A stretch of 64,000 nucleotides of DNA, taken from NCBI GenBank assembly GCA_029262235.1, contig JAJCZU010000003.1, forward strand, positions 567,990-631,989. The letters are read 5' to 3'. Under the pieces are notes generated by a model. That model made no database searches. It was not told the DNA's origin and saw nothing but the letters and a program-made list of their open reading frames with translations. Positions 1 through 16,786 of this stretch are shown one piece after another (the stretch's first letter is position 1; each line of letters opens with the position of its first letter). The position numbers and the translations under genes are program-made. This stretch comes from Candidatus Eiseniibacteriota bacterium. GTDB lineage: Bacteria; Orphanbacterota; Orphanbacteria; Orphanbacterales; Orphanbacteraceae.

Positions 1-1440
1 ACGGGCGAAGGACGCATCGCTCTTGACGGCCACGTCAGCACGAGCGAAATCGGTTCGCACGTAAAGAGCAAGATCGATCGAACCGTCGGGAAGGGTGTGA
101 TTCGCGTCGATGTCGATGCGCCGGATCGCCGGGGCGGAACCGACTGCGGTGAGAAGAATCGTCGCCTTCGTCGAGAGTGAGTCGAGTGGCCCGTTCGACT
201 CGAATGTCAGCGATCCGGTAACGGGCGGAAGTGAATCTGAAGCGCTACCGAGCAGGGGCGCGAGTCCGCGGAGGCTCGTGATGGCGACACGACCGCGGCC
301 ACCCGCCATTCCGTCCCGCAGGCCGAACGAACCGCGCGCATCGATGCCGTCGAGCGAGAGCGTGATGCTGTCGGCGCGCACATGATTTTCGCCCCACAGG
401 ATCCGCGCATCGAAGTTCCGAATCCAGTCGTTCGGTCCGGCGCTCGCCGTGACCGCGCCCGCACCATCCGCGGCGGACCACTGTCCGTCGAGCGTGAACG
501 GAAAGCCCGCGAGATCCGGAACGCTCGCGAGCGACGGGCCGAGGGGCGCGTAGCCGCGTAGCCTTTCGACGTCGGGCATGTCCCCGCGAAAGTCGAAGCG
601 GACCGGGGACGCCCGATTCGCGGCATCCCACGCTACCGTGCCTTCGATCTGCGTGTTCCCCGCCGCGCCGTTCGCGTCGATCTCCCGAAGGGTGATCGCA
701 TATTCGCCGGCCGGTTCCTCCAGGATTTCGACCCGAAGCCGATTGTCAGGCGCGATGCCGATTACGGCTTCGAAAGCGGTAGGCGCGTTCCTGCTCACGG
801 CGGCGCTCGCCGCTTCGAGGCGCCACACGCCGTTCTCGTCTTCCGCGCTGAGTTCCTGGAGCACGATTGCGGGATCCGTGCCGGCGCGATTGTCAATCGC
901 CGCCTGCATGTGGAAGTTCACGATTTTTGCGCCGCCCAGATCGAGCGCCGTCCCCGAGATCGTAAAACTGCCCAGGCGCGCCGACGGGATGTCCTCGATC
1001 GCGCCGGACCGCAGCGGGAAGAACAGGCTCCTCTTGTGCGGCGGGGGCGGGTCGTGGTCGCTGTCCGGCGCGAACGCCTGCTGTAGTCGAACCAGGTCGA
1101 GAGCGACGCCGGTGATTCTGACCGATTCGATGTTCAGATCGCGCCGCAGAAGAGAAGAGACCTGGACCAGAACGGCGGCTGTGTCCGCCGCGAACAGTGT
1201 GTCGGCATCCTCCGTCATGGAAACGTTTTCGAATACGATCGATCCGAGCGCGGGCCACCGGACACTTTCAACGTGAAGTTCCGCTGTGAGTTTGCCCGCA
1301 ATCCGCTCGATAAAGTACCGCAGCAGCATCGTGCGCGGAGTCTCGAGCCCGATCGACAGAATTCCCGTCAGCAGAAGCGCGATCGCAAGAAGCGAAACGA
1401 CGGCGAGGGCCCGCTTTCCGATACGCAGAAAACTCGTCAT
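1..1440 (-). CDS. TamB-like inner-membrane/periplasmic protein, N-terminal part (runs off the window)
   Basis: The minus frame from the ATG at 1440 stays open to base 1, giving at least 480 residues with no stop. It starts with a short basic segment and one hydrophobic helix (about residues 8-30, rich in A, V, L). A long beta-rich region follows, with recurring patterns of the AsmA/TamB type. TamB proteins span from the inner membrane to an Omp85 partner and help assemble outer-membrane proteins or move lipids. The gene just upstream is an Omp85/TamA-like protein that ends 8 bases before this start, which is the classical tamA-tamB order. The C-terminal domain that defines the family lies outside the window, so the name rests on the N-terminus and the context. 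Confidence 0.75.
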   Translation of the reverse strand, partial: MTSFLRIGKRALAVVSLLAIALLLTGILSIGLETPRTMLLRYFIERIAGKLTAELHVESVRWPALGSIVFENVSMTEDADTLFAADTAAVLVQVSSLLRRDLNIESVRITGVALDLVRLQQAFAPDSDHDPPPPHKRSLFFPLRSGAIEDIPSARLGSFTISGTALDLGGAKIVNFHMQAAIDNRAGTDPAIVLQELSAEDENGVWRLEAASAAVSRNAPTAFEAVIGIAPDNRLRVEILEEPAGEYAITLREIDANGAAGNTQIEGTVAWDAANRASPVRFDFRGDMPDVERLRGYAPLGPSLASVPDLAGFPFTLDGQWSAADGAGAVTASAGPNDWIRNFDARILWGENHVRADSITLSLDGIDARGSFGLRDGMAGGRGRVAITSLRGLAPLLGSASDSLPPVTGSLTFESNGPLDSLSTKATILLTAVGSAPAIRRIDIDANHTLPDGSIDLALYVRTDFARADVAVKSDASFAR

Positions 1441-1448
1441 GCGGGCAC

Positions 1449-3230
1449 TCAAAACGGATGCCCCACGATCGCGTGAAAAACAGAGCGGTTTTCGGTGTCG
1501 TCCAGTGTCGTGAGTCTGTAAGCCCAGTCGGCACGGACCGCCCCGATGGGCGTCCGAAAGATCAGGCTCGGTCCGGCGGCCGCTTCCAGTTCGTCGGCGC
1601 GTACTTCGTCCCGTTCGGCCCAGACCTGGCCGGAGTCGACGAAAAGAGCGCCGCCTACGATGCCCGCAATCGGGAAGCGCCACTCGAGCGACGCCTCGAA
1701 CAGCGCCTCGCCGCCGAGCGGAGAACCGTCACTGTCTTTCGGGCCCAGTTTCCGTCGCTGGAATCCGCGCATCGAATACGCGCCGCCCGCGTAGAAACGC
1801 TTGTTCGGCAGGAGGTCGTCTGACCCGGTCGTCGGACCTGCCGCGCCGACGGTAAGGCGCCCGGCGAACACGGTTCCGCCGGCAGCGCGATACATCGCCC
1901 CGGTGGAAGCCGCGGCAAGGAAATGGCTCTCGGAGAGCGCGCCGGGAAGGCCCCACTCCATATACGACTCCCAGCGGGAACCGCTTGTCGGGAAGAGCCG
2001 GTCATCCGCGGTGTTCCGGTCGTTCGAGAATCGCATCGTTGTCAGAAGGCCGTCCCGGCCGCTGAACGCATCGGGATCATCGGACTTTTCCTCGACCTGT
2101 ACGTCGCTCACGGAAAGCGCGGCCGTGCGTGTGCTGAACAGTGACGGCCGCCGACGGATCGTCAGCTCGCCGCCGGTTTCGCGTAATCCATACGATTCTT
2201 CATCCTCGCGCTCGCTCTTGATCGAAACGGCCGCATAGTTGCGCGTGCCGAACAGCGTATGCGTCCATGTGGAGAGTCGTCCGCTCTGAAGGAAGCGCGA
2301 GAACGTACCCGAAATCGAGCCGCCTCGTCCGCCCCGGAACAAGTTGCGATGTTCCCACCGGGCGCGGGAGCGCACGCCTTCGTCTGTCCAGAATCCCAGA
2401 CCCCATTCGACCGAGCGCGGTTTTCGTTCCGTGAGTTCGGCGACGAGATCGATCTCGCCCGGTCCCACCGAGTCGATCCGAACGCGTACGAGCCGGAAAA
2501 GGCCGAGAAGGCGGAGGTTCGTCGATGCTTCTTCGACAACGGTGGGGTGATAGCGGGAGCCGGAGCGGATGTTTACCGTCTGCGTCACGACAGGAACGAG
2601 ATCGTCACGGATCCCGGGGGCCGAGACGCCACGAAACGAGTACAGATCTCCTGCTTCTGCACGAAACGTAACGGAGACGGAGCGCGCGCTGCCGGGCTCG
2701 ACGCTCCAGGCCACCGTCGCGAACGCATGGCCGCGCTCCCTGAGCCGGCGTTCGATGAGAACCGCCGTGCTCTCTGCCGCGCTCTCACGGAAGACGGCGC
2801 CTCGGACAAGCGGCAGGTTCGCGCGCGTTTGCCCGGCCGCGGAAGGGGATCCGATGACGTCGAGTGCGCCGACGAGCACCGGCTCCCCGGGATCGATGCG
2901 AAGCACGATGCGCACGGTTCGCTTCTCGCGGCGGGGTTCGTACTCCGGCGTAACGCGTGCGGCGGGGTACCCGTTTCGCGCCAGGAAGAGTCGCACGCGG
3001 GCGAGGTCACCCTCGAGCACGCGCGCATAGAATTCCACGCCGGCAGTGAGGATGAGCCCGCGACGAATCGCATCGAGGTCTTCCGGAGCCCCGCTTACTT
3101 CGAGCGACGAGACTTTCCAGCCACGAAAATCACTTGCGGTCCACGCGGCCGCGTATCCCGTCTGCGCGACGAGGAGCAGCAGAAGGAGCAGCAGAAGAAT
3201 CAGTAGGTTCTTATGTATCACGGTGGTCAC
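1449..3230 (-). CDS. Omp85/TamA-family outer-membrane assembly protein
   Basis: About 593 residues. A signal peptide with an unbroken leucine run (LILLLLLLLLL) ends near a YAAA site. POTRA-like repeats follow, then a C-terminal 16-strand-type barrel region. The barrel holds the family's RGF motif (GGAYSMRGF) and ends in a terminal Phe, as expected for a barrel insertion signal. Omp85 proteins insert or secrete proteins through the outer membrane. I placed the start at the GTG at 3230 (GTG 3221 is also possible). The frame is open further upstream, but that would overlap the preceding gene by 83 bases and bury the signal peptide. It lies 22 bases after the serine hydrolase and 8 bases before the TamB-like gene, so the four genes probably form one operon. 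Confidence 0.85.
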   Translation of the reverse strand: MTTVIHKNLLILLLLLLLLLVAQTGYAAAWTASDFRGWKVSSLEVSGAPEDLDAIRRGLILTAGVEFYARVLEGDLARVRLFLARNGYPAARVTPEYEPRREKRTVRIVLRIDPGEPVLVGALDVIGSPSAAGQTRANLPLVRGAVFRESAAESTAVLIERRLRERGHAFATVAWSVEPGSARSVSVTFRAEAGDLYSFRGVSAPGIRDDLVPVVTQTVNIRSGSRYHPTVVEEASTNLRLLGLFRLVRVRIDSVGPGEIDLVAELTERKPRSVEWGLGFWTDEGVRSRARWEHRNLFRGGRGGSISGTFSRFLQSGRLSTWTHTLFGTRNYAAVSIKSEREDEESYGLRETGGELTIRRRPSLFSTRTAALSVSDVQVEEKSDDPDAFSGRDGLLTTMRFSNDRNTADDRLFPTSGSRWESYMEWGLPGALSESHFLAAASTGAMYRAAGGTVFAGRLTVGAAGPTTGSDDLLPNKRFYAGGAYSMRGFQRRKLGPKDSDGSPLGGEALFEASLEWRFPIAGIVGGALFVDSGQVWAERDEVRADELEAAAGPSLIFRTPIGAVRADWAYRLTTLDDTENRSVFHAIVGHPF

Positions 3231-3252
3231 TATATAGGAAAACCGGGCGGGG

Positions 3253-4212
3253 TCAGCGTGTGTCGGGGGGCTCGGGCGCCATGAGGTCTTCGACGACCGG
3301 CAGCAGGTCCCGCAGGATCTGCTCTCCGTTCTCACTTTCGACCATCCCTACGAGAATGTACCGCCGCCATTGAACGCCCAGCACGAGCACGGAATCGGAG
3401 TGCCACTGCTTCCACGTACCCGACTTGCGGAAGATCCGCGCAAGCGGCGCCCTCTCTTCGATCATGTGCACGAATTTGTGATGCACGCCCGGATCGGCGA
3501 GATGAGCCAGGATCTGGCGAGACCGATCAGGTGAAATGATGCGACCGTACGCAAGCATATAATAGAGACGACATACCTGCGTGACCGTCGCGGCGTGCGA
3601 CAGGCCGAGAATCGGGTCGGGGTGACGGCCTCCGGTCTTCGCGTACATCTTCCCGACCCAGAGGCCGCCTCCGCGCTCCGGATCGTAGAGTTCGTATTCG
3701 GGCGACCGCAGCACTTCCTCGATCGTGTCGAATCCTACGCGCTCAATCATGCGCGTTGCGGCCGCATTGCTCGAGACACGAATCATCTGGTCCATGTCTT
3801 CCGCGACTTCGGGCGTCAGTGCGATAAGACCGCGGTCGATGGACTCGTATGCGGCGAGCAGAATCGCGACTTTGGGCAGGCTGGCCGCGTACATCATCGT
3901 GTTCCCGTTCACGCGGGCAAAGCGCGGGCCTGCGGGATCACTGAGATCGACCACGCCCACGGCGAGTTTCTTCGCACGCACGAGTTTGTTCCATTCCGGG
4001 TTCGCTTTGAGAACCGCATCGAGTTCCTTCTGGAATGAAGGATCGAGCTGATCGTAGAGCGGGACCCAGTTCGAATCCGCTATGGTAAACGGGACATCCG
4101 CGTCAAAAGAAGGGGGAGGGGCGTCTTCGGCTGCGGCACTCGAAACGGCGAGCGCGAGCAGCAGCGCCAGGGCCCCGAAGAAGGTCATTCGATTCCGGTT
4201 TTGATTTTTCAT
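3253..4212 (-). CDS. Secreted serine hydrolase, class A beta-lactamase/PBP fold
   Basis: 319 residues with a signal peptide ending near SSAAAE. The penicillin-recognition motifs are present: SLPK (SxxK nucleophile), SSN (SxN) and KSG (KTG box, in FRKSGTW). Family members are beta-lactamases or DD-peptidase-like enzymes acting in the periplasm; the substrate here is unknown. The ATG at 4212 sits inside the TGA stop of the transporter gene (ATGA overlap), so translation is probably coupled. A second protein of the same superfamily, at 8698-10047, is coupled in the same way on the other arm of the divergent cluster. An antibiotic-resistance role is not implied, because the context is envelope assembly. 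Confidence 0.85.
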   Translation of the reverse strand: MKNQNRNRMTFFGALALLLALAVSSAAAEDAPPPSFDADVPFTIADSNWVPLYDQLDPSFQKELDAVLKANPEWNKLVRAKKLAVGVVDLSDPAGPRFARVNGNTMMYAASLPKVAILLAAYESIDRGLIALTPEVAEDMDQMIRVSSNAAATRMIERVGFDTIEEVLRSPEYELYDPERGGGLWVGKMYAKTGGRHPDPILGLSHAATVTQVCRLYYMLAYGRIISPDRSRQILAHLADPGVHHKFVHMIEERAPLARIFRKSGTWKQWHSDSVLVLGVQWRRYILVGMVESENGEQILRDLLPVVEDLMAPEPPDTR

Positions 4213-5651
4213 TGAGGGATGATCCTCCGATACTCACGCCAGAGATGATACGCCAGGTATGTCCAGACCAGAACGAGCAGGATGTTGAAAATGAGATAAT
4301 CGCGCGGCTCGGCGCCGAGCATCCTCGTACCGATCAGAATCGTGAGCGCCGCGAAACCGTCTCCGAGACGAACGAAGAGCGTGTCCACGGCGGACTTCGC
4401 CTTGTAGATCATGGCGGGGGTGACCGGCAGCCAGAGGAGCTGCCGTGCCGTGTTGTTGACCGAGTAGTTGGCGGAATTCTCCGCGATCTTGATCACACGG
4501 ATCACCGCCAGCGCCGGCACCAGCGCCATCAGCGAGTACGCGAGCAGGGAAACGAACGGCGTCAGGAACAGCAGAGTGCGAAAGCCCCCGTACTTGAGAA
4601 AGCGAGAGACGAAGAACGCCTGGATCACGAGCGCGGATATGTTGACCCAGAAATACAGGCTCCCGTAGAACGCGGTAATGGTGGATTTGCGGTAATTGCT
4701 GAGTTCGGCCGCATCGACGATTCCCGCGTTTGCGGCTTCGTGTTCGATCGAATCGTTGATCACTCCGAACAGGATGTTGTCCCCGTTCGTGACGGTCCAT
4801 GTCATCGTGATCGCAAGCAGAGCGGCGTACACGATATAGCGGTTGCCGAAGATGATTTCGAAGACACCTTCGTCTCCCGGGGCGGCGGGGCCGTCCGGCT
4901 CTTCAGCGTCTGCTTCCGCCGTGGTCGTCGTTTCGCCCCGCTTTTCGGCGAGTCCCGTGAGATAGGTCGCGAGTCCGAGCGGAATGACGGCGAGGAGAAT
5001 GAGATGGTACGGGTCGAGCGTCCCCGATCGCGTGAATTCCGAAATCCACGACCCCATGGCACCGCCCGCGGACGCTCCGATCGCGATCATGGGAAACAGG
5101 CGCTTGCCGCGTCCGAAGCGATAAAAGTCGGCGGCGAACGCCCAGAACTGTGCGACGATCGTGACTCCGAAAATGCCGACCCACAGGTAGAAGGCGATGC
5201 CGGCAAACGCATCCCAGCCGCGGGCCACATCGGCGGGGCGCATGATCCAGAAGAGGATGAGATTCGCGCAGAAGAACAGCGAAACGTACGTGACGAGCTG
5301 CAGGCGGTTCCAGGAGCCGGCCGCACGCGCGTAAAGAGGAACGATCACGAGCAGCAGAATGCTCTGGGCGAAACTCGAGTACGCTTTCAGTTCGATCTTG
5401 GAGAGACCGCCGACGTCCGAAACGGCCAGCCACCCTTCCCGGATCGGCTTTACGAGATAGTAGGCGGTCAGCACGAGGAAGACGTTCACCAGCAGGATGA
5501 GACCGGTCGTGCCCTCGCCGGACCGGACGTCAGTAAATGCGCGCAGAAGCCGGTCGATGATGCCGGAGCGGGGAGAGGCGCTGTCGTGTTTGGAAATCGT
5601 CACAGGCACTCTCACGAAATAAATGATGGGCGCAGGCAGGTTATGTGACAT
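4209..5651 (-). CDS. Npt1/Npt2-family nucleotide (ATP/ADP) translocase-like transporter
   Basis: 480 residues with about 11-12 hydrophobic helices. The sequence resembles the bacterial NTT/AAA family (ATP:ADP antiporter type) rather than mitochondrial carriers, for example a KPIREGW segment after the first helix and a charged acidic loop (rich in E, D, T, A) in the middle. Classical members exchange ATP for ADP in intracellular bacteria. Homologues in free-living bacteria are common, and their substrates are mostly untested. I chose the ATG at 5651; an in-frame GTG at 5666 is possible. The start lies 29 bases from two palindromes shared with the divergent dikinase-like gene. The stop overlaps the next start (ATGA). 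Confidence 0.8.
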   Translation of the reverse strand: MSHNLPAPIIYFVRVPVTISKHDSASPRSGIIDRLLRAFTDVRSGEGTTGLILLVNVFLVLTAYYLVKPIREGWLAVSDVGGLSKIELKAYSSFAQSILLLVIVPLYARAAGSWNRLQLVTYVSLFFCANLILFWIMRPADVARGWDAFAGIAFYLWVGIFGVTIVAQFWAFAADFYRFGRGKRLFPMIAIGASAGGAMGSWISEFTRSGTLDPYHLILLAVIPLGLATYLTGLAEKRGETTTTAEADAEEPDGPAAPGDEGVFEIIFGNRYIVYAALLAITMTWTVTNGDNILFGVINDSIEHEAANAGIVDAAELSNYRKSTITAFYGSLYFWVNISALVIQAFFVSRFLKYGGFRTLLFLTPFVSLLAYSLMALVPALAVIRVIKIAENSANYSVNNTARQLLWLPVTPAMIYKAKSAVDTLFVRLGDGFAALTILIGTRMLGAEPRDYLIFNILLVLVWTYLAYHLWREYRRIIPQ

Positions 5652-5677
5652 CGGAACCGCCCGCACAGTCTACGATC

Positions 5678-5716
5678 ATGCTGGCGATTGTGCCAGTATG
5701 CTGGCGATTGTGCCAG
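5678..5716. promoter_or_regulatory. Tandem palindromic operator between divergent genes
   Basis: A 19-base sequence (ATGCTGGCGATTGTGCCAG) occurs twice without change, at 5678-5696 and 5698-5716, with a 20-bp period. Each copy contains an inverted repeat, CTGGC-N6-GCCAG (5681-5696 and 5701-5716). A lone GCCAG half-site follows at 5724-5728. The pair sits in the 101-bp gap between the transporter start (5651, minus) and the dikinase-like start (5753, plus). Two sites about two helical turns apart would put bound dimers on the same DNA face, which suits cooperative repression or activation of both arms. No regulator gene is in view. Confidence 0.65.
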
Positions 5717-5752
5717 CCGGTTCGCCAGCTTCAGTGAAGAGGGGGGGCACTC

Positions 5753-8701
5753 ATGTCAGGCAGGACTTTGGTCGGTTTCATTCTCGCAGTCATGACCGGG
5801 GGAGCCGGCAGCGCGCAAGCGGCGCCACCGCTCCTTGAACCGGTTCACCCCGATTCGCTCATTGTCGCGCGTGAAATCGTGCAGAGAATGAAGACGGGCG
5901 ACCGGGGCCCGTACAAACGGATTCGCTGGTACTGCAAGGACGGCGCCGTGCTGGCGCCCGAGCCTTATGCGTGCGTCGAGCATGGCGGGGGGCATCAGTA
6001 CGCGGAGTATTCCGCCGATCGGGAACGCCTGGCGCGCATGGGGTGGTCGGTCGGTACGATCATTACGGCGTTGACGCCGGAAGAGTACCTTGCGCCTGCG
6101 GGGCGCCGTTACCGTTTGCGCCAGTTGCCCGTCGAGCGATACCTGACCGACGTCGACGACGGCTGGGTACTTCGGAAGGCGCAGTTCTATCGCGGGCGCG
6201 TGCAGATCGAAGACGAGGAGTACTTCGGGCAGCAGTTGCTTCAGTCCGTTCTCGCCGACCGGGAATTCGTCGCTTCGCATTTTCTTCTGATACGGGAACT
6301 CGTGCGGGCCGTGCCTCACAGCAGAGGGGGGGACAAGACGCGGAGCGTGCGCAGGATCGCGCAGGAAATCGCCGAGAAAGATCCGACGTTCGAGAAACTC
6401 AGGGTCAAGATTCATACGAATCCCGCGTTCGAAGATGTGGCCGCCGTCAAGCGCTGGGCGGACGCCGCCTCGGCCCGCAGCGCAGCGCCGGAGCTGATCG
6501 CGTCCGCGAAGACGCTCATGAGCGATCTGACGGCGCTCCACGGTCCGGCCGGACGCAAGGCGAGGCTCGAGTCGCTTGCCAGGCGCATCACGCGCAATCC
6601 GATGATCGGGATCGATGCCGACATCGGACGTGTTCTCGCCGGAACGCCCGCGGCGCGCATTGCCTCGCTGGGCAGAACCCTCCGTCTCGTGCGGGAGGCG
6701 GTCGAACGTTCCGACGCGCCGGAGGCTTCGCTCGACCTTCTCGATCTTTCGCTCGAGATCGAGGACGAGCTCACGAGTTCCGGTCTTGAGTACTTGCGAA
6801 CGGGCGACGGCACGCGGCGCAGTTCGCTCGAGGTCGTTTCCTCGCTTGCCGCCGGTGCTTTCGGTGCGGGCCTGCTTTCCGAAGGGGAGCGCCTTGCGAT
6901 TACGATGCCGGTCGACAACCTGCTCGCGGCTCAGTCGATCAGCCCCGCGGAGTATCTCGCCGCGCTGCAGCCGCTTCGCCGCGCCGGTGGCTGGGCGCTC
7001 GGGACCGTACGTTTCACGTTCGCCGAGGCGCTCACGCGTTTCAAGGAACTGGAGCCGAAGTCCTCGTTCTTTCCCGACGATGTGCTCCGAGGTTCGTCCA
7101 TGCTGGTACTTGCGGATCTGACGAACCGCCTGCTGACGGACGCGGAGGAATGGAACGGCGTGAAGCATCGCATTCTCGGCGAAGCGATGAGTCGCGTAGT
7201 CGGCCTGAACCCCGGGCTCGCCGCCGGCAGGCTGCGCGTTCTGACCGCGGCCGAACTCGAGCATCCGGTCGTCGATCCGAAGGAGATCGTGGTGCTCCCC
7301 GAGACGATTTCCGAACTGGGGCCGGTGGCCGGCATTCTGACGCTGGCGGAAGGCAACATTCTTTCTCACATTCAGCTGCTGGCGCGAAACCTCGGGATTC
7401 CGAACGCGACACTGTCGCCGGTTGCGCGCCGCCGGATCGCGGAAAGCGACGGCATGGATGTCGTGCTTGCCGTCGGAAGCAACGGCGCGGTTGTTCTTTC
7501 GCTGGCGCAGGATCTGCCGGCGGATGCGGCGAACGTAATGACCCGCACCGCGGTGGAAACGGCGCAGAACGCGGCCGTCAAGATCGACGCGCCGGCGCCG
7601 GATCTCGGCGTGCGCCGTCTCGTGCCGCTCAGGGAACTGAGGTCCGCGCTGTCCGGGAAGGTCGTGGGGCCGAAAGCGGCGAATCTGGGTGAGCTTGCGA
7701 AAATCTTTCCGGAGTACGTCGCTCCCGCGATCGGCATCCCGTTCGGGATTTATGCGAACGAAGCGATGCGTGCCGCCGATCCCGCTCCCGCCCGTCTCAA
7801 GAAAGCGTTTCAATCGCACCGCGCGGGCGCGCTCAGCGACTCGGCACTGGCGGCCGAAGTCGAAAACGTGCGTGTTTCGATCGCGGGACTCACTCTTTCA
7901 AGCGAGCTGCGGGACGAGATTCGCAAAGCCATGGCGCGGGACTTCGGCCCGGCCGGAACATACGGCTTCTTCGTGCGGTCCGACACGAACGTCGAGGATC
8001 TTCCGGGGTTCACCGGCGCGGGGCTTAACAAGACGATCCCGAATATCGTCGATCAGGAACGCCTCTGGACGGCCATTCCGGAAGTCTGGTCGTCGCCTTT
8101 CACGGCGCGCGCGATGGCGTGGCGCGGACGGATCCTGACGCGCCCCGAAGAAGTGTACCCTTCCGTGCTGCTCATGAAGAGCGTGGCCGCCGAGAAGTCG
8201 GGCGTGATGGTAACGGCGGACATCATTCACCGGGGAGAAGGGCTCACGATCGCAACCGCATGGGGCGTGGGCGGCGCCGTCGACAATGAGGCGGCAGGGA
8301 CCGTCGTGATCCGCCCGGACGGTTCGGTCGAGACGATCGCCGAAGCGAAGGCGCCCTATTGCCGCAGGCTGGCAGCAGCCGGCGGGCTGGAATGGGTCGA
8401 GGCGACATCCGGCCCGGTCCTGACGGAGCAGGATCGTGCGCAGCTCGTGAAGCTTGCCGCGGTCGTCGAGTCGCGACTCGTCAGGGAGAAAGGACCGGAC
8501 GGCGATCCGTTGCCGTGGGACATCGAGTTCGGATTCGAACGCGGCGAGCTCCGACTCTTTCAGATACGCCCCCTGATCGAACGCGGTCAGGTGAAAGCCG
8601 ACCGCTTCGTACGCGCGTTCGATTCCGGTGCGGTGCGCACGGAGGGCCGCGTCGATCTGGACAAACCACTTCCCAGGTTCGAATCGGGAGCGTCACCATG
8701 A
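5753..8701 (+). CDS. Secreted PPDK/water-dikinase-like protein with phosphohistidine domain
   Basis: 982 residues. A signal peptide (cleavage near AQA-A at about residue 24) comes first, then about 450 residues I do not recognise. Next is a phosphohistidine swivel domain around residues 520-570 (ILSHIQLLARN, His present). The C-terminal 350 residues are an ATP-grasp PPDK_N domain: GPKAANLGEL near 643, FFVRSDTNVEDLPGF near 742, and a closing EFGFERGELRLFQIRPL. The His domain precedes the ATP-grasp, as in plant glucan/phosphoglucan water dikinases and opposite to PEP synthase, and the SDTNxEDL motif is also water-dikinase-like. There is no PEP-binding C-terminal barrel. The Sec signal suggests activity outside the cytoplasm, which is odd for an ATP user. 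RBS GAAGAGGGGG precedes the ATG, and the stop overlaps the next start. Confidence 0.75.
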   Translation: MSGRTLVGFILAVMTGGAGSAQAAPPLLEPVHPDSLIVAREIVQRMKTGDRGPYKRIRWYCKDGAVLAPEPYACVEHGGGHQYAEYSADRERLARMGWSVGTIITALTPEEYLAPAGRRYRLRQLPVERYLTDVDDGWVLRKAQFYRGRVQIEDEEYFGQQLLQSVLADREFVASHFLLIRELVRAVPHSRGGDKTRSVRRIAQEIAEKDPTFEKLRVKIHTNPAFEDVAAVKRWADAASARSAAPELIASAKTLMSDLTALHGPAGRKARLESLARRITRNPMIGIDADIGRVLAGTPAARIASLGRTLRLVREAVERSDAPEASLDLLDLSLEIEDELTSSGLEYLRTGDGTRRSSLEVVSSLAAGAFGAGLLSEGERLAITMPVDNLLAAQSISPAEYLAALQPLRRAGGWALGTVRFTFAEALTRFKELEPKSSFFPDDVLRGSSMLVLADLTNRLLTDAEEWNGVKHRILGEAMSRVVGLNPGLAAGRLRVLTAAELEHPVVDPKEIVVLPETISELGPVAGILTLAEGNILSHIQLLARNLGIPNATLSPVARRRIAESDGMDVVLAVGSNGAVVLSLAQDLPADAANVMTRTAVETAQNAAVKIDAPAPDLGVRRLVPLRELRSALSGKVVGPKAANLGELAKIFPEYVAPAIGIPFGIYANEAMRAADPAPARLKKAFQSHRAGALSDSALAAEVENVRVSIAGLTLSSELRDEIRKAMARDFGPAGTYGFFVRSDTNVEDLPGFTGAGLNKTIPNIVDQERLWTAIPEVWSSPFTARAMAWRGRILTRPEEVYPSVLLMKSVAAEKSGVMVTADIIHRGEGLTIATAWGVGGAVDNEAAGTVVIRPDGSVETIAEAKAPYCRRLAAAGGLEWVEATSGPVLTEQDRAQLVKLAAVVESRLVREKGPDGDPLPWDIEFGFERGELRLFQIRPLIERGQVKADRFVRAFDSGAVRTEGRVDLDKPLPRFESGASP

Positions 8702-10047
8702 TCCGAAGTTATCGAGCCGGGAGACCGGCCTTCCTGTTTCTGATTGCGGCCGGCGTTTTCTTTCTGACAAACGCGCCGTCGTTCGGTTATCCGCTCGACG
8801 GATTCGAAAAAATGAGCATCGGCCGTCTCGACGCCTACGCGAAGATTCAGGCAGGGGGAAAGGGGACGCTGCTTCCTCCGGGCGCTCTTCTCCCTTCGAG
8901 CGCGATCCGTCTGCATCTCGCCGAGACCAGTCCCGACTGGGAGCTGACGGAAGCGGCGAAAGACCCCGTGCTGCAGAGCGCGATCGAGTCGCTCTTTCGC
9001 GGACGCGATCCCTCCTACGCCATCACCGTGATCGATATCACGGATCCTGACAACATCGCATGGGCGGGCCTTCGCGAAGACCGGGCGCAGCTCCCCGGAA
9101 GCGTCGGCAAGATCCTCTGCATGACGGCGCTGTTCGACGGGCTGGCGCGCGCGTTTCCCGACACGCTCGACCGCGCGCGCGTGCTCAGGGAAACGGTCAT
9201 CGAAGCGACCGACTGGGTCATGTGGGATTCGCACAAGGTCCCGCATTACGATGCCGCATCCCGCGTGAACCGTTTTGCGACGATCACTCCGGGAAACCGC
9301 TTCAACCTCGCCGAGTGGATCGACCATATGATTTCGTCCTCCGCCAACTCGGCCGGTGCAACAGTCTGGAAGGAAGCGATTCTGCTGCATCACTTCGGCG
9401 CTTCCTATCCGCCTTCGCGCTCGGAAGAAGTCGACTTTTTCGCGCAAACTCCGAAGAGCGAACTGCAGGAGCTGCAGCTTGCCGTGATCCGCGAGCCGCT
9501 CGCAAGGGCCGGTATCGACATCAGCCAGGTGCAGCAGGGGACGATGTGGACGAAGGGGGGGCAGCAGAAGATTCCCGGCGTGCAGTCGTTCGCGACGCCG
9601 CGCGAACTCGCGCGTATCCTTCTCCGCATCGAGCAGGGGCGTCTCGTCGATTGCTGGTCATCTCTGGAAATGAAAAAGTTTCTCTACATGACGAAGAAGC
9701 GGTACCGCTATGTCTTCGCTCCCGAGCTGCACGAATCCGCCGTCTACTTCAAAAGCGGCTCGTTCTACAAGTGCAGGGAGGAAGAGGGCTTCGCGTGTGC
9801 GAAGTACAAGGGAAACGTGACGAACATCATGAACTCGATCGCGATCATCGAGTCGCCCGCGGCGCCGGGCCCCGACCAGAAGGTCTATCTCGTTGCGCTT
9901 ACATCGAATGTCCTTCGCCTGAACTCGGCCTGGGATCACTCGCGGATCGGGGCCGCGATCGACCAGGCGATTCGCACGCGAAAAGGGGTGACCATCGATT
10001 ATTCCGGGGGAAATCGCGAACAGGAAGAGGCGGGGCGGGGGGACTGA
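8698..10047 (+). CDS. Secreted serine hydrolase, beta-lactamase-like (second copy)
   Basis: 449 residues. The ATG at 8698 overlaps the TGA of the dikinase-like gene (ATGA), giving a clear start and probable translational coupling. The N-terminal segment is a signal peptide or anchor (FLFLIAAGVFFLTNAPSFG). The superfamily motifs are SVGK (SxxK), SSAN (SxN) and KSG (YFKSGSF). It is longer than usual, with an insert of roughly 100 residues between the first two motifs. It shares the start of its domain (VIDITDPDN) with the 3253-4212 protein (VVDLSDPAG), so the two are probably related. The substrate is unknown; peptidoglycan or an ester is possible. Confidence 0.75.
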   Translation: MIRSYRAGRPAFLFLIAAGVFFLTNAPSFGYPLDGFEKMSIGRLDAYAKIQAGGKGTLLPPGALLPSSAIRLHLAETSPDWELTEAAKDPVLQSAIESLFRGRDPSYAITVIDITDPDNIAWAGLREDRAQLPGSVGKILCMTALFDGLARAFPDTLDRARVLRETVIEATDWVMWDSHKVPHYDAASRVNRFATITPGNRFNLAEWIDHMISSSANSAGATVWKEAILLHHFGASYPPSRSEEVDFFAQTPKSELQELQLAVIREPLARAGIDISQVQQGTMWTKGGQQKIPGVQSFATPRELARILLRIEQGRLVDCWSSLEMKKFLYMTKKRYRYVFAPELHESAVYFKSGSFYKCREEEGFACAKYKGNVTNIMNSIAIIESPAAPGPDQKVYLVALTSNVLRLNSAWDHSRIGAAIDQAIRTRKGVTIDYSGGNREQEEAGRGD

Positions 10048-10165
10048 CCGAAGCCCGCCGGATCTCCCCGATGCCTGCTTTTCGAGCCCTCGGGCAGTCG
10101 AAGAGGCGATATTCCGGCCCTGCTGGCTCGTACTCTGTTTGTATAGAAAAAAGATAGACAAAAAC

Positions 10166-10194
10166 TTGACAGATCCCTCTCGTGCATGTACATT
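10166..10194 (+). promoter_or_regulatory. Sigma-70-type promoter of the fasciclin gene
   Basis: TTGACA at 10166-10171, a 17-base spacer and TACATT at 10189-10194. The -35 box is perfect and the -10 box matches four of six positions. The start codon lies 74 bases downstream, after a purine-rich RBS (GAAGGAGAAAG). The surrounding sequence is unusually AT-rich for this window. Confidence 0.65.
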
Positions 10195-10267
10195 CTCCTC
10201 TGTCGGCGGCAACTTCGCCGGCATATCCAATCGGCAATCGATAACGGAAACGAAGGAGAAAGAAACC

Positions 10268-10792
10268 ATGAGACGGAACAAGGGAATGATCGCAGCGGCA
10301 GTCGCTCTTCTGATCGGCGGCGCCGGCATCTCGCAGGCCCAGGCGGCGGACATCTACGATACGGCGAAAGAAGCCGGGGCGTTCACGATCCTGCTGACGG
10401 CCATCGACGCGGCCGGTCTCGAAGAGACGATTCGGACCACGGAACTGACGGTCTTCGCCCCGACGGATGAAGCCTTCCAGGGCCTGCCGGCGGGCACGAT
10501 CGACAAGCTTCTCGCCAACACGGACCTGCTCACGGAGCTCCTGACCTACCATGTAGTGGTCGGCACTGTGGAAGCCAAGGACGTCGTACAGCTCAAAGAA
10601 GCCACGACGTTCCAGGGTGAGAACGTCAAGGTCAGCACTCCGGCCGGCAAATCCGTCCGCATCAACAACGCTACGGTCGTGACGGCCGATGTCGCGGCGG
10701 ACAACGGTGTCATTCACGTCATCGACAAGGTACTGATGCCGAAGAATTTCATCGGCAAGCTGAATAAGACGAACGCCGAAGCCAGGTACTAG
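10268..10792 (+). CDS. Secreted fasciclin (FAS1) domain protein
   Basis: 174 residues: a signal peptide ending near AQA-A, then a single FAS1 domain. Recognisable family blocks are TVFAPTDEAF near residue 61, a TYHVV block near 94, and a closing VIHVIDKVLMP. FAS1 domains mediate adhesion and surface interactions. The length is normal for a one-domain bacterial family member. The gene is monocistronic, with its own promoter at 10166-10194, a strong RBS and a GC-rich hairpin downstream at 10828-10853. It is probably well expressed. Confidence 0.92.
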   Translation: MRRNKGMIAAAVALLIGGAGISQAQAADIYDTAKEAGAFTILLTAIDAAGLEETIRTTELTVFAPTDEAFQGLPAGTIDKLLANTDLLTELLTYHVVVGTVEAKDVVQLKEATTFQGENVKVSTPAGKSVRINNATVVTADVAADNGVIHVIDKVLMPKNFIGKLNKTNAEARY

Positions 10793-10827
10793 ACAGTATC
10801 CGGACACCACGCGATGTCTGCTGCGCC

Positions 10828-10853
10828 GCGCCCGGTCCACCAGGACCGGGCGC
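10828..10853 (+). terminator. GC-rich hairpin after the fasciclin gene
   Basis: A perfect 11-bp stem (GCGCCCGGTCC/GGACCGGGCGC) with a 4-base loop (ACCA), starting 35 bases after the stop codon. There is no T-tract after the stem, so it is a possible terminator or 3' stabiliser rather than a textbook intrinsic terminator. Confidence 0.5.
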
Positions 10854-10951
10854 CTGTTCGACGTGAACGCGGATTCCGAACTCGGGCGACCAGTCGCTCA
10901 AGATGTTCGGTGGCTGCTGCAGCGGCGCGTTCCAGCAGTTCGGATCCAGGC

Positions 10952-13900
10952 CTAACGGATCAGGACGAGCTTCGTTACGACCCGCTCATCGCCGGCACGA
11001 AGCACTCCGAAGTAGACGCCCGACGGGGCGTCGCTTCCGCCGGTGCGCTTTCCCTGCCATGCGAACTGATGCGTGCCGGCGGGCAGGTACGCGTTGACGA
11101 GCCGCGTCACGAGGGCACCCCGCGCGTCATGGATATCGAGCCGCGCGTGCCCGGCTTCCGCGAGCGCGAATGAGAGCGTCGTAGTCGGATTGAACGGATT
11201 CGGTACGCCCGCCAGGGTGAGGGGCCCGGCCGGAGGCACTTCGCCCCCTGCTACATCGGTGACCGTGCTCCTGAAAACAGGGCCCATCACTTCGACCCCG
11301 CCCGCCTTCAATTCACCCTGCAGGTAATACTCGCGGTCCGATGGCGCGTTCGCGTCTACGTATTCGAACGTGACTTCGCCGCTCAATTCGGAAACATCCT
11401 CGAGCATCAGCAGCTCATACTCATCGTCCGGAATGCGACCGCCGACCAGATGCATGCGCAGGAACCGTGATGCGTTCGCTACGGTCCAGTCCACACGAAC
11501 ACCGGCCTGCTCTTCGACCGGATTGATCGTGCCGACCGGCTGCGACGGTGGCGGCACGGGCAGGAAGTACTGGCAGAGCGGGCTTCCGCAAACCGTAATC
11601 TCGCAGTTCCGCGTCACGGTGCTGTAGTTGTCCTGCAGCGTCACGGTGAACGGATACTTGCCGACCCCCGCGCTGGTTGTCCCCGTTACGAGCCCCGTGA
11701 CCGGATTGATGTCGAGGCCGGGCGGGAGGCCAAGCTGCGACCAGGTGAACGGGGGGTATCCGTCGTTTGCCTTGAACCGTGAAGGGGCCGTGTATGCCCT
11801 GTTTCGCCTCGCGAGAGGCAGCGGGCAAACCGGTTTGCTGAAATCGATTGAAACGAGCGCGCTGCATTCCGCGTAGGTGCCGCAAACCCCGTGAGGTTCG
11901 GTGAATGTGACCGTCTCGAGGTCGGTCGAGAAATACGCGGACTCGGGCCCGTGCAGCAGGAAGCCGACGCACGGTCCGGACGTGACTTCGTAAACGAGCG
12001 AACCGAGCGTAGCGGGGAACGTGACCGGGTTCGAAAGCGAGAAGTCGGTCGACTGCGCAAGCCAGCACTGCATGCGCGGGTAGAGGGCCGAAAGGCTGTC
12101 GGGAACGTTCTTCGGCTGCAGCGGAATGTCTGTCCATCCGGCGGGCGTGTTGTAGGCGAACGTATCGATCAGCACGGATTCGGAATCGATGGCGCAGAAT
12201 GTGCACCCCCAGCTGTAGGTCGACGAGAAGCCGGCGATGAAGAGATCGAGCGTGTCCACGGTACCGATCGAATCGAAGAGCGTGCCCATGTCGATGGCGG
12301 GATCGCATATCATGTCGCCGTCGCGGTCGAGCCCGAGGAAACTCGGCCCGATCGTAACTTCGCAGTTCGTGATGTCCGCGAGTCCGAGCTGGTCGACGGC
12401 CGATACGACGAACGCGAAAGTGCCGGCGCTCAGCGGAGTTCCGCCGATTTCCCCCGTTGCGGAATCGATGTCCATCCCCGCGGGCAAACCCGCCTGCGAC
12501 CACGTGTAGGGGGGCCACCCGCCGCTCGCCGAGAAAACAGATCCGGCAGGGTAGAGTTCGTTCGGGTCAGAGTCCGGAAGCGGGCACGCCGGAGTGTTCT
12601 GGTGGATCGTGAGCGAATCAACGACGAGGATCGAGCAGTCACGCGATGCGGAGTCGCCCTGATCGGCAACCGTCACTGTGAACGGAAAGTTGCCGACCGT
12701 GTTCGGCGTGCCGGAAAGCTCCCCGGTTGCAGTCCCGATCGTAACCCCCGGCGGAAGTCCGGATGCCGACCATGTGATCGGGGGAATGCCCGCGAACGAT
12801 TGAAAGACGTAGCCCGCGGGGATCGGCAGGGCACGCACCGCGAAGGGCAGGGGGCAGGCCGGATTCAACGTGTCGATCGTAACGGCGAACCCGGCGGCGA
12901 TCGCGCAGGCTCGTTCGTCTGTGATTCCGAGAGAATCCGTAACGGTAACGGTGAATGCGAAGTATCCGGTTTCGTTCGTCGTGCCGCCGATTTCGCCGGC
13001 CGGGGAAAGGGTGAGCCCCGCGGGCAATCCGTCGGCGGACCAGACGTGCGGCGGAATCCCGCCCGCGGCCTGGAAGACCGTGCCGGCAGGGTAGGGCACG
13101 CCAGGGGTCGCGATCGGAATCGGGCACGCGGGCTGGAGCGTGTCGATCGCGAGATCCGCGATGACCCGAAGGCTGCATGTGCGCGACGCGATCGATGCGA
13201 AACGCTTCCCTTCCGAATCGGCCACGTTTACTGTGAATACGAATTTGCCGACTTCCGTGGGAGTGCCGATCAAGAGCCCGTTGTCCCCCTGCACGACCAT
13301 TCCCGCGGGAAGTCCGGTGCCCGACCAGACGAAGGGCGGAACGCCCCCGATGGCCAGGAACTGTACGTTCTGCGGATACGGAACCGAGAGGGCGCCGGGC
13401 GGAACGGGGCAGGCGGGGTCGAATGGATCGATGGCCACATCGGCACCGACGACGAGTGAGCATGCGCGCGCCGCCTGAGCGCCGACACTGTCGGTCACCA
13501 TCGCCGTGAACACAAAACTGCCCATGACCGACGGCGTGCCGACGATTTCACCCGTTGCCGCATCGATGTCGAGGCCGGCCGGCAGCCCGGACTGTGACCA
13601 TGTATGCGGGAGAACGCCCCCGGCCGCCACGAACGTGACCCCGCCCGGATAGACGTCGCCCACGTGACCGGGCGGAACAGGACAGAGGGGGGCGAACGGA
13701 TTGACGGAAAGCGGCACGCCGCACGGTTGGTTCGCGCATACGTCCTGCGGGTTCGTGAAGAGGACAGACTGGAAATCGGTTGTCAGGTAGCCGCTCTTCG
13801 GTCCGTGAATCAGGAAGCCGACGCATGTGTCCTGGGCAACTTGATATGAAATGCTGCCGAGGCGGGCCGGCAGCCCGATCGGACTGCTGAGGTTGAAGTC

Positions 13901-14287
13901 GACCGCTTGAGCAAGCCAGCACCTGGCCTTCGGGAACAGGCCGCTGACCGCCGCGGGGACAGCGTCTTCCAGCAGGTTGATCGTCGTCCAGCCGGCCGGT
14001 GTTTCATAGAGAAAAGTGTCGAGGATCACGGAGTTCGAGTCGATCGCGCAGAACGTGCAGCCCCAGCTGTAAGTGCTGTCCGCGGCATCGATGAACAGAT
14101 CGATCGTATCGCGCATGCCTGCCGTTGCGCTCGCGATGCCCATGTCCGACGGCGCGTCGCAGGCCAGGTCGCCATTGCGGTCGAAGCCGATGAAACTCGC
14201 AAATGCACTGGGACAGAAAAGCGCGATCGACAGAAAGAAGGCGAGGCAGAAGAGGGGGACGGGATCGTGCCGTTTACCGCAATTCAT
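10952..14287 (-). CDS. Large secreted protein with six putative Ig (He_PIG) repeats, a duplicated N-terminal domain and a C-terminal sorting domain
   Basis: 1111 residues. A signal peptide ends near SAFA. Next is an unrecognised domain of about 160 residues containing a YSWGCTFCAIDS block and a DRNGD motif. Then come five tandem repeats of about 90 residues of the putative-Ig/He_PIG type (consensus core PPxxWSxxGLPAGL, then TGEIxGTP), a second copy of the 160-residue domain, a sixth repeat, and a linker. The C-terminal 80-residue FlgD-like domain has PNPFNPTTTLSF and GVYFGVL. This ending is typical of surface or secreted proteins in FCB bacteria. Each repeat carries a conserved CP pair and a late Cys, so disulfides are possible. 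The start is supported by GGAG 8 bases upstream. Confidence 0.88.
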   Translation of the reverse strand: MNCGKRHDPVPLFCLAFFLSIALFCPSAFASFIGFDRNGDLACDAPSDMGIASATAGMRDTIDLFIDAADSTYSWGCTFCAIDSNSVILDTFLYETPAGWTTINLLEDAVPAAVSGLFPKARCWLAQAVDFNLSSPIGLPARLGSISYQVAQDTCVGFLIHGPKSGYLTTDFQSVLFTNPQDVCANQPCGVPLSVNPFAPLCPVPPGHVGDVYPGGVTFVAAGGVLPHTWSQSGLPAGLDIDAATGEIVGTPSVMGSFVFTAMVTDSVGAQAARACSLVVGADVAIDPFDPACPVPPGALSVPYPQNVQFLAIGGVPPFVWSGTGLPAGMVVQGDNGLLIGTPTEVGKFVFTVNVADSEGKRFASIASRTCSLRVIADLAIDTLQPACPIPIATPGVPYPAGTVFQAAGGIPPHVWSADGLPAGLTLSPAGEIGGTTNETGYFAFTVTVTDSLGITDERACAIAAGFAVTIDTLNPACPLPFAVRALPIPAGYVFQSFAGIPPITWSASGLPPGVTIGTATGELSGTPNTVGNFPFTVTVADQGDSASRDCSILVVDSLTIHQNTPACPLPDSDPNELYPAGSVFSASGGWPPYTWSQAGLPAGMDIDSATGEIGGTPLSAGTFAFVVSAVDQLGLADITNCEVTIGPSFLGLDRDGDMICDPAIDMGTLFDSIGTVDTLDLFIAGFSSTYSWGCTFCAIDSESVLIDTFAYNTPAGWTDIPLQPKNVPDSLSALYPRMQCWLAQSTDFSLSNPVTFPATLGSLVYEVTSGPCVGFLLHGPESAYFSTDLETVTFTEPHGVCGTYAECSALVSIDFSKPVCPLPLARRNRAYTAPSRFKANDGYPPFTWSQLGLPPGLDINPVTGLVTGTTSAGVGKYPFTVTLQDNYSTVTRNCEITVCGSPLCQYFLPVPPPSQPVGTINPVEEQAGVRVDWTVANASRFLRMHLVGGRIPDDEYELLMLEDVSELSGEVTFEYVDANAPSDREYYLQGELKAGGVEVMGPVFRSTVTDVAGGEVPPAGPLTLAGVPNPFNPTTTLSFALAEAGHARLDIHDARGALVTRLVNAYLPAGTHQFAWQGKRTGGSDAPSGVYFGVLRAGDERVVTKLVLIR

Positions 14288-14450: not shown

Positions 14451-14524
14451 AGCAGGGGGGGCATGTGACGATTCGCCCGCAACGATGCGCCTGCAACACA
14501 TATCCGATTGAGGGAGCCATTTCC

Positions 14525-16786
14525 GTGAACAGAATCACTTTGTCCGTTTGCGCCGCGACGATCATTGCCATTGGTTCGCTTGCCGGGATCGCACGAGCCG
14601 CCGATGAGGTCCCGCTGCGTGCCGGTGCGGGCCTGCTGTCCGCGCTGGAGAACATCGAGCCCGCGTATATTCCGAGCGGCATTCTCTACGACCGCGTGCT
14701 TCCGCTTTCGCGCGTCGAAGAACACGACGGAACGAGTTTCGAGCCGGTGAGCTGGCGCCGGTGGAAGCAGATCGTGCATGAAATGCAACGGGCCCAATCG
14801 GAAGGAACCCCGATCGCAGGCCAGGACGCGATCGACCGCGCCGCGGCTTCGGCATCGAGAGGCGGCACGCCGGTTTCGGGCCGGTTCGGGGAAGCGATTC
14901 CCGTCGGCATTCTGAACTTCACGTATGACCGGTTCACGGAGAACGCGTTCGAATCGGGGGCGGCACGGATCGACGGCGAGGTCGTGGCCATCACGCGCCC
15001 GAGCGCTTTCGAGTCGCGGCGCGCGTTTGCTGTCGCCCCTGCGCGCGGGCGTACGTATCGCGGCGAGCAGGTCGTGTTTCAATTCGATCCTGCGCTCTTT
15101 CTGACGAACGGCGCGGCCCGGCCGGTTACGATCGACGCAGACTTCGGAGACGGCGCCGGCGAGCGCACGTTCGATTTCGGCGAGGAAGTCGTCGTGCGCT
15201 ACGGGTCAGTCGGCACGAAGACGGTTCGCGTCAGCGTATCCTTCGATGACGGCACGCAGTGGTCATCGGCGTTTCTTTTTGACGTCATCACGCTGGTGGC
15301 GCCGCTTCCGAACGACACGCTCTCGATCACGGCAACGATTCCGTACAACGGCGAGTTCGCGGGCGGCGAGGCCTACGTTTACCTCGCGCCCGCTCACTCG
15401 CAGATCACGCAGCCCGTGGTAGTGATCGAAGGTTTCGATATCGACAACAGCCTGAACTGGGATGAGTTGTACGCGCTGCTGAACGACGAGAACCTGATCG
15501 AAGATGCGCGCGCGCAGGGGTTCGACCTCGTCGTCATGAACTTCGCGGATGCCACCGATTACATTCAGAAGAATTCGCTCGCGGTCGTCGAGTTGATCGA
15601 ACAGGTGCAGGGAGTCGTTTCGCCGGGGACCACGTTTCCGCTGATCGGCGCGAGTATGGGCGGTCTTTGCGGACGCTATGCGCTCTCCTATATGGAAACG
15701 AACGCGATCCCCCACAGCGCGCGCACGTATATCTCGTTCGACACGCCGCACAACGGCGCCAGTATTCCGCTCGGTATGCAGTACTGGCTCGATTTCTTTT
15801 CCGGGCAGTCGGCCGAAGCCGCGACGCTGCTGGCGAGCCTCGATCGGCCCGCGGCGCGCCAGATGCTCGCGTATCATCACACGACTCCGCCCGGGGCGAC
15901 CGGCGCCAGCGATTCGCTGCGCGGCGCCTTCGATGCGGAACTCGCGTCGCTGGGCGATTATCCCGCCACCACGCGAAACGTTGCAGTCGCGAACGGAAGC
16001 GGCGCGCAGGCAGGGCAGGGATTCGCGGCGGGTGATCAGGTCATCTTCTGGGAGTACGACAGTTTCCTCGTCGATATACGCGGCAACGTGTGGGCTGTAC
16101 CGGACGGCGGGCCCTCGCAGATCCTGCAGGGCGAAATCAATCTCATTCTGCTTCCTTCCGACATCATGGACGTGAGCGTTTCGGGAACCCTCCCGTACGA
16201 CAACGCGCCGGGCGGATCCCGGAACTCGATGGCGCAGATGGACGCGACCGAGGCGCCGTACGGAGACATCATCGCGCTTCACGACGACCACTGCTTTATT
16301 CCGACGATCAGCGCGCTCGACCTCGCCACATCCGATCTCTTCTACGACATTGCCGGCGAACAGAATCTGCTTTCGATGACGCCGTTCGACGCCGTCTACT
16401 TTCCCGTAGCGAATCAACCTCATGTGGACGTGACCACGGAGAACAAGGCGTGGCTGCTTGATGAACTCGGCCAGATGCCGACCGGAGTCGCCGGTTCTTC
16501 GATTCCCGACGTGCTCGCGCTCGACCAGAACGTGCCGAACCCGTTCAACCCGACGACTTCGATCTCGTATTTCGTGCGCGAGGCGGGTTACGTGAATCTG
16601 GCGGTGTACGATGCGCGTGGCGCGCGGGTTACGGTTCTCGTGAACGAAACGCGGCCGGCCGGGGCAAACCGGACGACATGGGACGGAACGAACGAGCGTG
16701 GTGAAGCCGCAGGGTCGGGCGTTTACTTCTACCGGCTCACGGGACAGGGTGCCGGGGTGACGCGCAAGATGGTGCTCGTCAAATAG
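14525..16786 (+). CDS. Secreted alpha/beta hydrolase (lipase/esterase-like) with C-terminal sorting domain
   Basis: 753 residues from the GTG at 14525, chosen because GAGGGA lies 9 bases upstream and a signal peptide begins there. The frame is open back to 14465. After an N-terminal beta-rich region, the alpha/beta-hydrolase core shows a nucleophile elbow GASMGG (GxSxG), a DTPHNGA block and a late DDHCF histidine, consistent with a Ser-Asp/Glu-His triad. The C-terminal 80 residues are a FlgD-like domain (VPNPFNPTTSISY, GVYFYRL). It probably hydrolyses esters or lipids outside the cell; the substrate cannot be read from sequence. Confidence 0.85.
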   Translation: MNRITLSVCAATIIAIGSLAGIARAADEVPLRAGAGLLSALENIEPAYIPSGILYDRVLPLSRVEEHDGTSFEPVSWRRWKQIVHEMQRAQSEGTPIAGQDAIDRAAASASRGGTPVSGRFGEAIPVGILNFTYDRFTENAFESGAARIDGEVVAITRPSAFESRRAFAVAPARGRTYRGEQVVFQFDPALFLTNGAARPVTIDADFGDGAGERTFDFGEEVVVRYGSVGTKTVRVSVSFDDGTQWSSAFLFDVITLVAPLPNDTLSITATIPYNGEFAGGEAYVYLAPAHSQITQPVVVIEGFDIDNSLNWDELYALLNDENLIEDARAQGFDLVVMNFADATDYIQKNSLAVVELIEQVQGVVSPGTTFPLIGASMGGLCGRYALSYMETNAIPHSARTYISFDTPHNGASIPLGMQYWLDFFSGQSAEAATLLASLDRPAARQMLAYHHTTPPGATGASDSLRGAFDAELASLGDYPATTRNVAVANGSGAQAGQGFAAGDQVIFWEYDSFLVDIRGNVWAVPDGGPSQILQGEINLILLPSDIMDVSVSGTLPYDNAPGGSRNSMAQMDATEAPYGDIIALHDDHCFIPTISALDLATSDLFYDIAGEQNLLSMTPFDAVYFPVANQPHVDVTTENKAWLLDELGQMPTGVAGSSIPDVLALDQNVPNPFNPTTSISYFVREAGYVNLAVYDARGARVTVLVNETRPAGANRTTWDGTNERGEAAGSGVYFYRLTGQGAGVTRKMVLVK

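Follow-up and report, generated by a model that had tools for sequence, protein, structure and literature searches.

Within a 64,000-nucleotide stretch of a Candidatus Eiseniibacteriota genome (assembly GCA_029262235.1, contig JAJCZU010000003.1, positions 567,990 to 631,989; hereafter the window), four neighbouring genes form a cassette that is conserved across phyla. They encode an ADP/ATP-carrier-type inner-membrane nucleotide transporter (NTT; 4209–5651, minus strand), a secreted dikinase-type protein (DIK; 5753–8701, plus strand) and two secreted class-A-type SxxK serine hydrolases, BLA1 (3253–4212, minus strand) and BLA2 (8698–10047, plus strand). Our data suggest that bacteria with this cassette feed ATP outside the inner membrane to drive chemical modification there, and we see an even chance that the four proteins work together as a system of four components for phosphotransfer outside the cytoplasm. 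Each part falls into a known family, and the whole is a system that we could match to no known kind; no description of an NTT–dikinase–hydrolase cassette was found in open-licence papers. ATP transport into the periplasm was called unexplained in a 2020 review (PMC7432876), and a 2017 survey leaves open what NTTs do in free-living bacteria (PMC5381601). A conserved NTT together with a secreted enzyme whose ATP site is intact offers a concrete test both of a periplasmic ATP route and of the role of NTTs in free-living cells.

A scan of GTDB genomes returned 112 DIK relatives, of which 80 were retained (loci L038–L117), homologous to the window protein along nearly its full length. Their hosts are mainly Gammaproteobacteria and Bacteroidota, with further examples in Zeta-, Beta- and Deltaproteobacteria, Magnetococcales and Acidobacteria; most are metagenome-assembled genomes, and the few isolates include Formosa algae KMM 3553, Lutibacter citreus 1KV19 and Lewinella cohaerens DSM 23179, in which all four genes lie together. 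Searching with a separate hidden Markov model for each family across the 47 well-covered loci (window included; at least 5 kb upstream and at least 6 kb downstream of DIK), we found BLA2 in 44, BLA1 in 43, NTT in 43 and all four genes in 42, and clustering of the 812 other flanking genes yielded no further recurrent partner. The cassette is a four-gene unit, not six. An earlier note on this DNA had proposed that an NTT and a secreted enzyme that uses ATP, each with its own coupled serine hydrolase, belong together with a TamA-like and a TamB-like gene; its core recurs as a co-occurring unit across phyla (42/47). No DIK relatives were found on viral contigs, plasmids gave partial matches to other phosphoenolpyruvate (PEP)-synthase-type proteins only, none covering 80% of DIK, and PADLOC and PHROGs gave zero matches.

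The stable units within the cassette are two pairs, DIK–BLA2 and NTT–BLA1, each consisting of a nucleotide protein and one SxxK hydrolase. BLA2 directly follows DIK in 66 of the 72 loci whose downstream DNA extends for 1.4 kb, a 4-base ATGA overlap being the commonest spacing, and NTT adjoins BLA1 in 51 of the 53 loci holding both. The commonest orders are DIK> BLA2> NTT< BLA1<, mostly in Bacteroidota, and DIK> BLA2> BLA1< NTT>, mostly in Gammaproteobacteria (arrowheads give the direction of each gene). The divergent NTT/DIK order of the window is not general, though it recurs in L040, L080 and L204; in most loci, DIK–BLA2 is convergent or collinear with NTT/BLA1, and in some genomes the two pairs lie on different contigs. 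As gene order varies, no shared control region is conserved. The earlier note had placed six families around one such region and had held that close relatives with separated, independently regulated arms would refute its reading; by that test, common regulation fails. The functional association survives the separation of the arms, because all four genes are still present. In the window itself, all six genes lie where that note placed them, and both ATGA overlaps that it described are present (4212–4209, minus strand, BLA1/NTT; 8698–8701, plus strand, DIK/BLA2).

Whole-genome searches were made for six lone or incomplete DIK loci (L054, L067, L076, L089, L107 and L116), and the missing partners were located elsewhere in 6/6 genomes, with BLA2 above 530 bits, BLA1 above 380 bits and a weakest best NTT match of 158 bits; NTT and BLA1 are neighbours in four of the six. 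Two of these BLA1 matches (G389 and G390) have one stop codon inside the matched frame, so these copies may be interrupted or mis-bounded. In a sample of 386 genomes, the 3 that are DIK-positive all have a BLA1 match above 300 bits, as does one other (G178), and a further genome (G359) has one at 225 bits; counting both of these as exceptions, the co-occurrence of BLA1 and DIK gives a Fisher p of 1e-6.

The window NTT, which has an ATG start, gives zero Pfam matches on its own. A profile built from its close relatives (A5) aligns along its full length with 9j3n, a solved ADP,ATP carrier (24–464 to 17–500; E = 2.5e-12), and also matches 9j3j (E = 3.1e-8), bearing out the earlier call of an NTT-like nucleotide transporter. 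The profile of the gammaproteobacterial cassette NTTs (A6) matches 9j3n with E = 1.5e-17, the two profiles align with each other in hhalign (probability 100, E = 3.3e-42), and one A6-type member exceeds the PF03219 cut-off (70 bits). Judged by these comparisons with solved structures, the cassette transporters belong to the NTT (ADP/ATP carrier, TLC) family represented by PF03219/TIGR00769, which is rare (23/193 genomes). The cassettes of Bacteroidota contain NTT-HEAT proteins and those of some Deltaproteobacteria contain NTT-HEAT-cNBD proteins, resembling the fusions of free-living bacteria in the 2017 survey, the main text of which mentions no dikinase or hydrolase (PMC5381601); unlike the surveyed carriers, those of the cassette have partners that suggest ATP supply to the periplasm. 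Three deltaproteobacterial loci (L057, L065 and L081) have two NTTs around DIK, a short one and an NTT-HEAT-cNBD type divergent from DIK. Tandem NTT genes of different subfamilies, the short type followed by the Bacteroidota-cassette type, occur in two DIK-less genomes (L124 and L127).

A tree of 55 NTT sequences, including cassette-free ones, with a wider FastTree alongside, placed the cassette NTTs in several subfamilies, mixed with cassette-free NTTs; it contains 5 label changes, at least 4 of them forced by well-supported branches. A single clade of cassette NTTs was rejected, at a cost of 626 log-likelihood units (p-AU 9e-60), and, given the long branches in the tree, the number of label changes is less certain than this rejection. 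Window-type NTTs cluster with cassette-free ones, among them the second NTT (L139) that is encoded in the same genome as the window. The NTT slot has been refilled repeatedly from different subfamilies, hence NTT-type transport itself seems to be selected and, beyond linkage alone, transporter function appears to be needed. This bears on the idea that the cassette consists of unrelated genes held together by horizontal transfer, which we regard as having almost no chance of being right: the window copy does look laterally acquired, being absent from six relatives, but cassette content is kept while order and orientation reshuffle, genomes in which the pairs are split retain all four genes, and repeated refilling of one slot goes against passive linkage. 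The second, cassette-free NTT gene of the window's genome (L148:8853–10178; G000:C2 around 243867) looks vertically inherited, since the same type is present in the relatives G002 and G005 (L150 and L151).

DIK is 982 residues long and begins with a leader peptide (residues about 1–23, ending ...AQA/A; 5753–5821), followed on the plus strand by a mainly helical N-terminal domain (about 30–470; 5840–7162) with a WFCxDG...C motif, which is the putative acceptor domain, a phosphohistidine (PHis) domain (471–586; 7163–7510) with His539 at 7367–7369, and an ATP-grasp nucleotide-binding domain (619–945; 7607–8587). Pfam PPDK_N matches residues 637–950 of the window protein (E = 2.4e-25) and 24/24 sampled members, PEP-utilizers matching 22/24. 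In an AlphaFold2 (AF2) model of full-length DIK from a 71-sequence alignment (pLDDT 91.5), residues 619–945 match the ATP-binding domain of rifampin phosphotransferase (5hv1; VIA Z 33.2, root-mean-square deviation (rmsd) 2.4 over 309) and residues 471–586 its PHis domain (5fbu; VIA Z 10.9, rmsd 2.7 over 103). His539, in an SH motif, together with R742, E748, D749, E925, Q937 and R939, is identical in 71/71 sequences, and within the N-terminal domain the same holds for Cys61 and Cys74. DIK has both hallmarks of the PPDK_N/PHis dikinase superfamily, an ATP-grasp domain with its ATP-site residues and a PHis domain with its catalytic histidine. Leader-like N-termini were called in 59/81 DIK sequences, versus 132/503 flanking genes, by a crude rule that misses some evident leaders. 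The earlier note's description of a secreted ATP-grasp/phosphohistidine protein is upheld by the leader in most members, by the Pfam and VIA matches to both domains, and by the structure prediction that it had called for. A different leader-bearing protein of 725 residues, likewise with PHis followed by ATP-grasp, is encoded in a genome lacking DIK (L017:1174–3351).

In glucan water dikinase (GWD), an N-terminal substrate part is followed by a phosphohistidine domain and a C-terminal ATP-grasp domain, and plastids likewise use NTT carriers for their ATP supply. DIK has the same domain order and dikinase residues as plant GWD and phosphoglucan water dikinase (PWD), whereas it is bacterial and secreted, has another N-terminal domain and is linked to SxxK hydrolases; no carbohydrate-binding Pfam domains were found in the 24 members, and just 3 of the 24 touch the GWD-type PHis model (GWD1_pHisD, PF22973), weakly (best E = 0.0095). 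Rifampin phosphotransferase and PEP synthase resemble DIK in both catalytic domains, but in DIK the PHis domain precedes ATP-grasp, a leader peptide is present, and no rifampin-binding or PEP-binding parts were detected. That DIK is itself a rifampin phosphotransferase was rejected on its domain order, the reverse of the ATP-grasp, RIF-binding, PHis order of that enzyme, and on a RIF_Ptrans_rph score of 72.7 bits against a cut-off of 999. DIK might instead be a secreted ATP-dependent ligase resembling PigC and RedH, making an amide, ester or C–N bond with the SxxK enzymes as (trans)acylases and the NTT supplying ATP. Its ATP-grasp domain matches the PigC and RedH models with 42–63 bits, and SxxK enzymes can be transpeptidases; these matches, however, extend no further than the ATP-grasp domain common to all and score below the PEP synthase matches, and the N-terminal domain is unrelated by sequence, so we consider a ligase unlikely.

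Both hydrolases carry the motifs of SxxK acyl-enzymes, S111–K114, SSN (147–149) and KSG (263–265) in BLA1 and S135–K138, SxN (215–217) and KSG (352–354) in BLA2. S111, K114, S147, N149, K263, S264 and G265 are invariant in 51 BLA1 homologues, and S135, K138, S215, N217, K352 and G354 in 58 BLA2, which also have invariant Cys359 and Cys367. Pfam Beta-lactamase2 (PF13354) matches both proteins (E = 1.7e-15 and 1.8e-6; BLA1 with 57 bits versus a cut-off of 22). The AF2 model of BLA2 (pLDDT 92.4), another prediction proposed in the earlier note, has the fold of class A beta-lactamases (VIA Z about 25) and PBP-A (Z 24), so that fold and SxxK, SxN and K[TS]G motifs are found together. Profile comparison shows the two to be homologous (probability 98.6, E = 5.8e-16), and the common superfamily suggested earlier is borne out; they are nonetheless distinct families and no recent duplication. 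Candidate general bases in the omega loop (Glu166 region) are an invariant Asp/Glu at 199 in BLA1 and E255 in BLA2, acidic in 71% only. Leader peptides were called by the same rule in 48/71 BLA2 and 46/61 BLA1. Extra BLA1 copies adjoin the cassette in L077, L086, L098 and L114, and BLA1 homologues lie near Ser/Thr protein kinase-like genes in genomes without DIK (L202:10965–12071 and L203:9090–10463).

BLA1 and BLA2 share fold and motifs with PBP-A and class A beta-lactamases, from which they differ in their low identity (12–19%), the extra N-terminal segment of BLA2 and the association with DIK and NTT; beta-lactam hydrolysis is not indicated. The class A fold of the hydrolases, and the fact that rifampin phosphotransferase is what the ATP-grasp and PHis domains match best in structure, would fit an antibiotic-inactivation island made up of a rifampin-phosphotransferase-like enzyme, two beta-lactamase-fold enzymes and an MFS-type exporter. 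We hold this to be very improbable, as DIK is permuted relative to rifampin phosphotransferase and has a leader, none of the curated beta-lactamase and rifamycin models was reached at its cut-off, the transporter is an NTT and not a drug exporter, and the partners are kept one-to-one across phyla, with no resistance-gene-like shuffling.

We put slightly less than an even chance on a fuller reading, in which free-living Gram-negative bacteria use a dedicated NTT to export ATP into the periplasm, where a secreted dikinase spends it on phosphorylating a polymer that belongs to the envelope or is itself secreted; this would be the first bacterial counterpart of secretory-pathway and plastid phosphorylation with its own ATP carrier. 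For the four-component system we infer the direction of transport, the phosphotransfer activity, the substrate and the order of steps as follows. The inner-membrane NTT would most likely send ATP outward in exchange for AMP or ADP (and phosphate) coming in. Secreted DIK would bind ATP in its C-terminal ATP-grasp domain and pass phosphate to His539 in the middle domain, which would swivel and hand it on to an acceptor, an envelope or secreted substrate bound by the N-terminal helical domain. The reaction would be that of glucan and phosphoglucan water dikinases and of rifampin phosphotransferase (ATP + X + H2O -> AMP + X-P + Pi); alternatively, the activated state may be used to ligate. BLA2 is probably translationally coupled to DIK through the gene overlap, and the two hydrolases, as SxxK acyl-enzymes, may cut or remodel the substrate of DIK, either before it is phosphorylated or afterwards. 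ATP export is favoured because DIK, a secreted protein whose ATP site is fully conserved, must obtain ATP in a place where it is scarce, and an NTT is a known mover of ATP across such a membrane.

Several points weigh against ATP export to a periplasmic dikinase. The PPDK_N/PHis superfamily also contains ligases (PigC/RedH) and an antibiotic-inactivating enzyme. A leader was called by the crude rule in just 59/81 DIK. The putative acceptor domain had no fold match, in a VIA listing that barely reached this part. BLA2 is absent at one locus (L065, where the locus only was examined), and BLA1 homologues occur without DIK in a few genomes (G178 and G359). Further, the characterised NTTs of intracellular bacteria, parasites among them, import ATP (PMC5381601), and the cassette carrier might import nucleotides too.

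Such import, along with the many hosts that are Bacteroidota of marine genera, would suit a scavenging system, in which nucleotides, or breakdown products linked to them, enter from outside through the NTT while DIK and the hydrolases digest or activate an external substrate, DIK taking ATP from lysed cells or running its reaction in another direction. We judge this rather unlikely, since the full set of ATP-binding and phosphohistidine residues is conserved in secreted DIK and no further nucleotide-salvage gene recurs beside the cassette. The relatives of DIK also speak against it: PEP synthase, rifampin phosphotransferase and GWD normally consume ATP, though PPDK can run both ways.

The TamA/BamA-like Omp85 gene (1449–3221, minus strand; Omp85 E = 3e-44, POTRA 1.6e-13) and the TamB/AsmA-like gene, which runs off the window (1–1437, minus strand; a weak DUF748 match of 27 bits, below the curated cut-off), are native flanks outside the system. 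As parts of the cassette they were rejected, contrary to the earlier note: TamA-like genes lie near two other loci only, adjacent in neither, and a genome of the same genus (G001) has a TamA orthologue 76% identical with TamB conserved beside it, the cassette being absent. Nucleotide identity between the window and G001 is 72% over TamA/TamB and 81% over the gene at 14479–16060, and the G001 interval between these flanks holds unrelated genes, judged by sequence to be a Ser/Thr protein kinase and a TetR-type regulator. Neither DIK nor BLA1 is present in the phylum's six other genomes, which are drafts, one of them 82% complete. The window cassette is most simply explained as a lateral arrival beside native TamA/TamB, loss in the relatives being the alternative. 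A fasciclin-domain gene and a secreted repeat protein of 1111 residues (10139–14287) separate the cassette from the conserved far flank, and neither was matched in the corresponding interval of G001.

The 101-bp divergent intergenic region between NTT and DIK (5652–5752) contains two tandem copies, 19 bp each, of ATGCTGGCGATTGTGCCAG (5678–5696 and 5698–5716). A consensus scan of this region found no sigma-70-like promoters or terminators. No other copy of ATGCTGGCGATTGTGCCAG was found in the 4.47-Mb genome, and with these two as the whole set, a genome-wide operator was rejected. Each 19-bp copy (5678–5716) contains an inverted repeat, GCTGGC-N6-GCCAG, and the tandem repeats may be an operator for a local regulator.

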